DNA of 61,880 nucleotides. Source: Bacillus sp. ISL-37. Its GTDB lineage: Bacteria; Bacillota; Bacilli; Bacillales; Cytobacillaceae. The DNA lies in contig NZ_JAGGQL010000013.1 in the NCBI RefSeq assembly GCF_018613315.1, positions 1 through 61,880 of the forward strand, given 5' to 3'. Below the pieces are notes generated by a model, which did no database searches, was not told the origin of the DNA, and worked only from the letters and a program-made list of their open reading frames with translations. This document shows positions 47,562-48,866 of the stretch, one piece after another. Position 1 is the stretch's first letter. The number at the start of each line of letters is the position of its first letter. The position numbers and the translations under genes are program-made.

Positions 47562-47743
47562 GATTTGCCACCCCTTTTCGGATTGGGAAGTTTGTTTTAT
47601 ATACATAGCCACTATTCTAATTTTCGAAACCCCCACTATTTGGAAAATGAAACTTTCTAAGTTTATTTCCGTATATATTGTATGGATTGCTTAGAGTCGA
47701 TTTTTCAAATATAATTGAGCAATGATCGAAAAGAGGTGATGGC

Positions 47744-48031
47744 ATGCTATTGGAAATTTATGCTCAGTCTGTTGATGCAACAGCCGTTTACAGCGCTTAT
47801 TTGACTTTGCTCATCAGCATGTCGATGTCCGTCTTCTGGTTATATCGCGACGCCTCTATTATCCAATCATGTTTATTGCGAATCAGGCTGAAGCCTTCCA
47901 CTTCTGAAATAGCTTTTAACAATAAAGCTGAACTTGGGTTGAAGTTTCACCTGCAATTTCTTAAGCGAATAAAAATTAAAATTGATCCGGGTGATGAGGA
48001 CAGTCATTTTTCTCCTATAGTTAATTACTAG
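47744..48031 (+). CDS. Putative MifM-like translation-arrest leader peptide for yidC2
   Basis: A 95-residue frame with GAGGTGATGGC before ATG, ending 21 bases before yidC2. It has an N-terminal membrane segment (about 13-33, AVYSAYLTLLISMSMSVFWLY), then a basic region and an acidic end KRIKIKI-DPGDED-SHF (81-86). B. subtilis MifM, the arrest sensor before yidC2 (yqjG), is also 95 residues with an N-terminal membrane anchor and an acidic stall region near residues 85-89. The sequence itself is not conserved with MifM. Its last codons form a hairpin with the yidC2 ribosome-binding site. Confidence 0.7.
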   Translation: MLLEIYAQSVDATAVYSAYLTLLISMSMSVFWLYRDASIIQSCLLRIRLKPSTSEIAFNNKAELGLKFHLQFLKRIKIKIDPGDEDSHFSPIVNY

Positions 48032-48053
48032 ATATAATTTAGGAGGAGAAAAA
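48007..48053 (+). promoter_or_regulatory. Hairpin masking the yidC2 ribosome-binding site
   Basis: TTTTTCTCCT (48007-48016, inside the leader ORF) pairs perfectly with AGGAGAAAAA (48044-48053), covering the AGGAGGAG site and first base of the yidC2 start. A ribosome paused at the acidic codons 81-86 would cover or open the left arm and expose the site. Confidence 0.75.
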
Positions 48054-48823
48054 TGAAGAAGCTTTTCACCATGATTATTGTTCTACTTATACCAGCACTA
48101 TTAACTGGCTGCCAGGCGTTTACAAGCGAGGGGTCGTTCTTCCAGTCAACATTCATCACCCCCTTTACCTGGCTCATCAAGCTATTCGCCGGCATCACAG
48201 GAGAAAGCTACGGTCTGGCGATTATTTTGATTACAGTGCTCATCCGGCTGGTGTTAATGCCCTTAATGTTAAAACAATATAAAAACCAGCAGAACATGAA
48301 AGAAAAGATGGAAGTCCTCAAGCCTGAAATGGATGAAATCCAGAAGCAGCTGAAAGGGACTAAGGATCCAGCTGAGCAAAGAAAATTACAACAGGAAATG
48401 ATGGGCCTCTATCAGAAGCATGGAGTAAACCCCCTTTCTGTTGGCTGTCTGCCGATGCTGGTTCAGATGCCAATTTTGATGGGCCTATATTATGCGATTA
48501 GCGGTTCTGCCGAAATCGCCAGCCACTCCTTCCTCTGGTTCAACCTGGGACATTCTGATATTTGGATCACGACAGCTGCCGGGCTGATTTACTACCTGCA
48601 GTTTAAGGTCTCGATGTCCAATGTAACGGAGGAGCAGAAAAAGCAAATGAAGTTCATGGGGTTGCTGTCACCAGTTATGATTGTGATGTTTTCGTTAAAT
48701 GCCCCGTCTGCCCTTCCCCTTTACTGGACAGTTGGCGGGATGTTCTTGATTGTACAAACATTACTGGCTAGAAAGGTCTATGCCCAAAAAGAAAGTCCAA
48801 TTAGGGTTGAGAACCAAGCTTAA
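48053..48823 (+). CDS. yidC2: Membrane protein insertase YidC2 (YqjG/SpoIIIJ family)
   Basis: A 256-residue lipoprotein insertase of the YidC/OxaA family that inserts membrane proteins. Signal peptide with lipobox LTGC (17-20). Five helices follow; conserved hydrophilic-groove Arg lies in ITVLIRLVLMPLMLKQ (near 70), and the family loop NPLSVGCLPMLVQMPILMGLY is intact. Short C-terminal tail without long basic extension. The upstream leader ORF and hairpin suggest induction when the main YidC is deficient, as for B. subtilis yqjG. Confidence 0.92.
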   Translation: MKKLFTMIIVLLIPALLTGCQAFTSEGSFFQSTFITPFTWLIKLFAGITGESYGLAIILITVLIRLVLMPLMLKQYKNQQNMKEKMEVLKPEMDEIQKQLKGTKDPAEQRKLQQEMMGLYQKHGVNPLSVGCLPMLVQMPILMGLYYAISGSAEIASHSFLWFNLGHSDIWITTAAGLIYYLQFKVSMSNVTEEQKKQMKFMGLLSPVMIVMFSLNAPSALPLYWTVGGMFLIVQTLLARKVYAQKESPIRVENQA

Positions 48824-48831
48824 TGTACTAA

Positions 48832-48866
48832 TGCCTGGGGAATTGCTGCTCCCCAGGCTTTTTTAG
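48832..48866 (+). terminator. Terminator after yidC2
   Basis: Stem GCCTGGGGA/TCCCCAGGC with an ATTGCTGC loop and six T. Confidence 0.9.

Follow-up and report, generated by a model that had tools for sequence, protein, structure and literature searches.

A probable diverged MifM-type leader upstream of yidC2 in Mesobacillus: homology, an altered arrest core, and a tail conserved as RNA

The window, as we call the whole stretch of 61,880 nucleotides analyzed here (contig NZ_JAGGQL010000013.1 of Bacillus sp. ISL-37), carries yidC2, a gene for a YidC family insertase, and directly 5' of it on the same strand an open reading frame of 95 codons that begins with ATG and reads AAAGAGGTGATGGCATG (table 1). 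This is the position of mifM relative to a secondary yidC. The genome has two YidC genes, and yidC2, the product of which by eye has a lipoprotein-type N terminus, is 48% identical to the other copy, which lies between genes that by eye read as rnpA and jag, that is, in the spoIIIJ arrangement. A second YidC beside a copy in an rnpA–yidC–jag-like locus fits MifM-type control. The leader–yidC2 unit may end at the terminator-like stem-loop that follows yidC2; shuffled sequences average 1.7 such sites per region, so that this site says little alone.

Table 1. Features of the leader–yidC2 locus in window coordinates
Feature	Position	Strand	Basis
SigW/ECF-type promoter-like site TGAAAC-N16-CGTA	47648..47673	+	Strict motif match
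SigA-type promoter-like site TTGCTT-N17-TATAAT	47687..47715	+	Motif counts across loci
Shine-Dalgarno AGAGGTG of the leader	47732..47738	+	Sequence; GAGGTG-like forms precede most relatives
mifM-type leader ORF, 95 aa, predicted monitoring substrate	47744..48031	+	Homology, conservation
Predicted transmembrane segment, codons 13–33, N-out/C-in by charge	47780..47842	+	Hydropathy, charge
Predicted arrest core LQFLKRIKIKIDPGDED, codons 70–86	47951..48001	+	Lowest pN/pS (0.13); aligned to MifM 71–88
Hairpin 5' arm, within leader codons 87–91; contains anti-Shine-Dalgarno core TTTCTCC	48004..48016	+	
Hairpin 3' arm, the 3' part of the yidC2 Shine-Dalgarno and its AUG	48044..48056	+	
yidC2, YidC/Oxa1/Alb3 insertase	48053..48823	+	Pfam PF02096 (60KD_IMP), E 7.4e-47
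Intrinsic-terminator-like stem-loop ending the two-gene unit	48833..48858	+	9 pairs, 7 GC, then T run

The features that the original prediction had assigned to the leader, namely its 95 codons, an N-terminal membrane segment, and the acidic DPGDED at residues 81–86, were all recovered. By hydropathy alone, the best 19-residue stretch starts at residue 15 with a Kyte–Doolittle value of 1.53; the net charge is −2 before the hydrophobic segment and +3 over the 40 residues following it, and the C-terminal region is basic and then acidic (LKRIKIKIDPGDED). MifM proteins have been defined by clustering and an acidic cluster in residues 70–100 (excerpts of PMC10987492). The local charge of the leader is −0.6 at residues 81–85, below the MifM threshold of −0.3 within residues 70–100, as it is in all 91 leaders collected here, and 47 residues separate its hydrophobic stretch from the acidic cluster, more than the 30 required of MifM. 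The N-terminal charge is likewise negative in 91 of 91 leaders, and five of the 52 other family leaders have no 19-residue stretch with a hydropathy above 1.2.

Comparison across relatives showed that the leader is kept in all 21 genomes of the genus, Mesobacillus, and no orthologous leader without helix and hairpin was found. The 21 aligned leaders are 47–98% identical to that of the window (the match in G012 overruns its stop, the true ORF being 93 aa), and relatives with a species name include Mesobacillus selenatarsenatis (98%), M. boroniphilus (93%), and M. subterraneus (69 and 72%). JAGGQZ010000020.1 (L032), a record titled Chryseobacterium sp. ISL-80 that is probably mislabelled or contaminated, also holds a leader with 72% identity to that of the window. 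In two genus genomes yidC2 looks broken with the leader intact: the match in G001:C233 has internal stops, and the one listed for G020:C1 spans residues 95–256 only; both may be sequencing errors. Within the genus, pN/pS is 0.20, 0.22, 0.50, 0.13, and 0.31 for codons 1–12, 13–33, 34–69, 70–86, and 87–89, respectively, values obtained with synonymous sites near saturation. Because the ratio is lowest in codons 70–86 (0.13 vs. 0.50 for codons 34–69), we conclude that this core is selected as a peptide.

The start codons of the leaders vary. Of the other family leaders, 16 of 51 begin with TTG, and six of eight leaders from sister genera begin with TTG or GTG. The starts best spaced to a Shine-Dalgarno are ATT, ATC, and ATC in L139, L141, and L149 (genomes G063, G073, and G055), where an in-frame stop leaves no ordinary start near or only a badly spaced TTG, CTG in L094 (G094), and ATA in L148 (G178). 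Weak initiation of the sensor leader may be selected.

To place the leader among its relatives, we used searches at several levels. YidC matches were present in all 193 genomes of the family, with a single match listed for 14, and an alignment-based search alone found the leader in 31 of the 193. The wider leader family emerged only from reading upstream of YidC2: a leader-family ORF precedes the second YidC in all 60 family loci read, one locus from each of 60 among the 172 genomes that belong to the family but not to the genus (14 of the 60 seeded the profile and 10 had already matched in the alignment-based search). In the profile tests, the target group was excluded from the profile and E-values refer to 1404 translated segments. 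A profile of the 52 other family leaders found all 21 Mesobacillus leaders (all at E<1e-3, best 4.9e-11) and all 10 Bacillus MifM sequences (seven at E<1e-3, best 1.2e-6), the best segment that is not a leader having an E-value of 0.058. The profile of the 21 Mesobacillus leaders found 50 of the 52 other leaders, 18 at E<1e-3, and a profile of eight leaders from the sister genera g16, g17, and g24 found 52 of 52, 46 at E<1e-3. The Bacillus profile matched 51 of the 52, none below E 1e-3; among the Mesobacillus leaders it matched two of 21, with E-values no better than 8.6. In the other direction, the Mesobacillus profile found none of the 10 Bacillus MifM loci. Profile–profile alignment with hhalign gave the same picture, with a probability of 93.5% over 92 columns between Mesobacillus and the 52 and of 69% over 28 columns between the 52 and Bacillus, and of 0.5% between Mesobacillus and Bacillus directly. 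A search with MifM as the query did not find the genome of the window, and searches of PDB, Pfam, and NCBIfam with the leader or its alignment returned nothing.

The claim that the leader shares little sequence with B. subtilis MifM thus holds pairwise, as the Mesobacillus profile and the Bacillus loci illustrate. Judged by the profile chain, the leader is homologous to Bacillus MifM through intermediates, the last link lying mainly in the C-terminal region. If the arrest peptide had an origin separate from MifM and had come to the MifM layout by convergence, the absence of a direct link to Bacillus MifM, by sequence or by profile, would be explained, yet a chain of homologous leaders of equal gene position and length joins the two, and we consider such an origin exceedingly improbable; on the strength of the profile chain it was rejected. 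What had been proposed as a new, independently diverged sensor is better placed, given that chain and the alignable arrest regions, in the already known MifM family, of which 572 proteins have been reported from 592 Firmicutes genomes (Fujiwara et al. 2024, excerpts of PMC10987492).

The arrest regions of the Mesobacillus leaders and MifM can be aligned with each other, a gap of one residue falling at Trp73. The Mesobacillus core reads L-K-R-I-K-I-K-I-D-P-G-D-E-D, the consensus of the other family leaders W-I-x-K-x-I-R-x-K-x4-D-D-x-E (with W in the first position in 41 of 52, R in 8, and F in 3), and that of the Bacillus loci R-I-[TI]-T-W-I-[RS]-K-V-[IF]-R-M-[NK]-x4-D-D-E-D. Seven of the 17 core residues (L70, L73, K74, I78, K79, P82, and G83) are invariant in the 21 aligned genus leaders. 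The Trp73 column is a gap in all 29 Mesobacillus and sister leaders, 21 of 21 in Mesobacillus, and none of these 29 (genus 21/21) has a W anywhere in residues 61–82; in seven of the 21 from the genus, the column beside the gap holds F, which another alignment could put under the W. W is also absent from 11 of the 52 other family leaders. The M80 column holds I and the N81 column K in 21 of 21 genus leaders, and the I74 column holds I, F, or L. Residues R69, I70, W73, I74, M80, and N81 are important for arrest in B. subtilis MifM (excerpts of PMC4423224), and the Mesobacillus leaders do not have this set. Because the B. subtilis arrest residues are not kept, we class the window leader as a MifM variant.

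The end of the leader is of a different nature. A perfect hairpin between the last leader codons and the yidC2 Shine-Dalgarno, the arrangement known from MifM, had been predicted with 10 bp; the hairpin is present, but it consists of 13 Watson–Crick pairs between TCATTTTTCTCCT and AGGAGAAAAATGA and takes in GGAG and the AUG. The suggested folding check bore this out: positions 47985–48075 fold at −29.4 kcal/mol (z −4.67), and none of 200 dinucleotide shuffles was as good. When the upstream folds of 40 Shine-Dalgarno-led genes of the window were compared, yidC2 being one of the 40, that at the yidC2 start was the most stable (−29.0 vs. −27.8 for the next). Pairing of the Shine-Dalgarno with a probability above 0.5 was seen in 18 of the 40 and was therefore discarded as evidence by itself; joint pairing of the Shine-Dalgarno (>0.5) and the start codon (>0.9) was seen in 3 of the 40.

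We then followed the tail through all loci. The yidC2 start was assigned in 89 of the 91 (all but L006 and L111), and three rows, L126, L122, and L108, have wrong anchors, so that L126 was omitted from the frame and recoding counts and all three from the arm-covariation and box-conservation counts. In 88 of 89 loci the Shine-Dalgarno is paired (>0.5) to the tail that precedes it. Compared with 300 synonymous recodings, the native tail has a better fold than their mean in 87 of 88 loci and reaches p ≤ 0.05 in 47 of 88 and, among genus tails, in 9 of 20; the tail of the window beats 277 of its 300 recodings (23 as good, p about 0.08). This null is strict because serine–proline and leucine codons already favor pairing. 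All 20 genus rows counted contain an anti-Shine-Dalgarno core (TCTCC, CCTCC, or CTTCC), and it is read in three frames, 13 of the FSP, five of the FLL, and two of the FFS type. The count drops L019, a near-copy of L018, and becomes 12, 6, and 2 with L019 in and L006 out, or 13, 4, and 2 without L008 (G001), whose frame may stem from a sequencing error, its yidC2 likewise being broken. Five frame changes are needed on the yidC2 tree, compared with an average of 6.5 for shuffled labels, and all three frames recur in each of the other three groups. Among 58 distinct arm combinations, outer pairs 1–5 exceed partner-shuffles (0, 3, 0, 0, and 5 of 1000 as high) and outer pair 6 does not (85 of 1000 as high), in a test whose register, chosen by minimum energy, favors pairing. 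The leaders L092, L094, and L116, of G096 and G094 (g16) and G087 (g13), respectively, lack a stop codon ahead of the Shine-Dalgarno and end inside yidC2 in another frame, as if the end of the peptide did not matter. Judged by these alignments, the part of the leader beyond the acidic residues is dispensable as protein and conserved as RNA.

A tail constrained as RNA and not as protein, together with leaders that pass the Shine-Dalgarno into yidC2, would also suit a leader that merely couples translation to yidC2, the passing ribosome opening the hairpin with no nascent-chain arrest. Coupling does not need the peptide, however, and the codons just before the hairpin, 70–86, are those with the lowest pN/pS and the seven invariant residues; moreover, arrest has been proven by experiment for a peptide to which the leader is homologous. 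We therefore regard mere coupling as unlikely. MifM-like control of yidC2, as first proposed, is instead well supported at the level of sequence by the gene order, hydrophobic N terminus, acidic cluster, spacer, and hairpin, and the leader is very probably a diverged MifM of Mesobacillus that controls yidC2 by stalling.

The position of the putative stall can be estimated from MifM. B. subtilis MifM stalls at D89–S92 (excerpts of PMC4423224). In our alignment, MifM D86–S92 corresponds to D84–S90 of the window leader, and the stalls would accordingly fall at leader codons 87–90. A stalled ribosome reaches about 15 nt further, and one at codons 87–90 would reach 48017 or beyond and cover the whole 5' arm. 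Over 89 loci, the three with wrong anchors included, the median distance from the acidic cluster to the AUG is 54 nt, and this distance and the stall geometry agree with arrest-dependent opening. In B. subtilis, M90 of uL22 sets the specificity of MifM stalling, and M90 is retained in nine of ten genomes tried, that of the window included; L174 (G092, g16) has Q90 in its place.

The proposed circuit would work as follows. The leader would be translated, its N-terminal segment serving as a YidC substrate. When YidC capacity is short, the segment would stay uninserted, no force would pull on the chain, and the ribosome would stall, its tunnel occupied by the basic core, with the acidic residues close to the peptidyl-transferase center and the P-site, by alignment with MifM, around codons 87–90. 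With the 5' arm under the stalled ribosome, the yidC2 Shine-Dalgarno and AUG would be freed and YidC2 made. When YidC works, insertion would pull the chain, translation of the leader would finish, and the 13-bp helix would shut yidC2.

Upstream of the leader, two promoter-like sites were found. TGAAAC-N16-CGTA, which we take to be the consensus of SigW-type ECF sigma factors, ends 70 bp before the leader start and is the only strict match on either strand of the window. The strict form (spacer 15–17) occurs in 14 of the 21 genus loci (0.0 expected, 50 shuffles each), and the looser GAAAC/GGAAC-N15-17-CGT[ACT] in 20 of 21, one of them (L022) out of place at −130, with 0.08 loci expected from shuffles. 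Elsewhere, the looser form was found in five of eight sister, 8 of 52 other family, and none of 10 Bacillus loci, which carry B. subtilis-like MifM. Where the spacer is 16 nt long (17 rows), conservation is 98% in the boxes, 72% in the spacer, and 83% in the flanks. The genome encodes SigW (339 bits, cut-off 243) among many other ECF-like matches, and its sigW gene is preceded by CGAAAC-N17-CGTA with GAAAC starting at −61. Strict matches number 38 in this genome compared with seven for the reversed pattern, and of 30 that were fetched, 21 lie within 260 nt before a Shine-Dalgarno-led ORF, the leader included; the 38 sites make up a candidate SigW-type regulon of Mesobacillus. The SigA-like site is nearer the leader. 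Its motif, TTGNNN-N16-18-TA[TA]A[AC]T, is loose and occurs in 19 of 21 genus loci (0.78 expected) and 50 of 52 other family loci (2.28 expected); the site has a −35 box that matches at three of six positions and was not listed by a standard promoter scan. For the 10 Bacillus loci, these promoter counts rely on leader starts assigned heuristically. Transcription is probably driven by the SigA promoter and, in Mesobacillus, also by the ECF (SigW-like) one, which suggests that envelope-stress control is added to the leader–yidC2 unit. For B. subtilis, yqjG, yqzJ, and mifM are absent from the main text of a SigW regulon paper (PMC3498285), and excerpts of PMC6827917 name no ECF promoter for yidC2.

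The hint of envelope stress given by the ECF-type promoter might be read to mean that the leader does stall but responds to another signal than YidC insertion, such as Sec function or membrane potential. The downstream gene in the loci read, however, is yidC2; the median spacer, as we measured it, is 47 residues for the genus and 53.5 for Bacillus, close to the published MifM value of 54 (excerpts of PMC10987492); and an acidic N terminus before a single membrane segment fits an N-out substrate of the YidC type. Another sensed function is in our judgment highly improbable, and we retain YidC insertion as what the leader would monitor.

Combining these observations, we tentatively propose, with slightly less than even confidence, that Mesobacillus yidC2 is under two stacked controls, a SigW-like envelope-stress promoter that yields the leader–yidC2 transcript and a Trp73-less MifM with the core KRIKIKI-PGDED and other tunnel contacts, whose stalling determines whether YidC2 is produced from it, followed by a frame-free tail that acts as an RNA switch. 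This kind of control is known; as far as our searches of the open-licence literature reach, the variant without Trp73, with a frame-free tail and an ECF-type promoter, is apparently undescribed, and no paper treating both Mesobacillus and MifM was found there. Its interest is that an arrest peptide can drift far with the circuit kept, a residue needed in B. subtilis being gone throughout a clade. The Trp73-less leaders are natural variants for asking which tunnel contacts stall the ribosome, and the three-frame tail divides the leader, by sequence alone, into a part conserved as peptide and a part conserved as RNA. If it is real, the ECF-type promoter couples the reserve for membrane insertion to envelope stress; no such link was found for B. 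subtilis in the excerpts of literature searched.

Several known systems resemble this one. The ApcA and RAPP/RQH arrest peptides (excerpts of PMC7897499 and PMC10987492) also combine a membrane segment with a C-terminal arrest sequence and lie upstream of yidC or sec genes; the RAPP/RAPG/RAGP-like motif that characterizes them is, by eye, absent from the 95 residues of the window leader. CliM of Clostridia is likewise a YidC-monitoring leader with a stem-loop over the yidC2 start (excerpts of PMC13183943); it has a KYxIW motif (excerpts of PMC10987492), which by eye the window leader lacks. With the Firmicutes MifM family (excerpts of PMC10987492) the window leader agrees in every property compared, as an ORF upstream of yidC with a hydrophobic segment by hydropathy, the charge pattern, and a spacer above 30. 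MifM–YidC2 (YqjG) of B. subtilis also has a 95-codon leader with one N-terminal membrane segment and a basic then acidic end, a stem-loop that masks the Shine-Dalgarno, and the second YidC of two as its target, and the profile chain joins it to the window leader by homology. Unlike B. subtilis MifM, the window leader is without Trp73 and M80–N81 and has PGDED in place of DEED, and its hairpin also includes the AUG and an ECF-type promoter-like site lies upstream.
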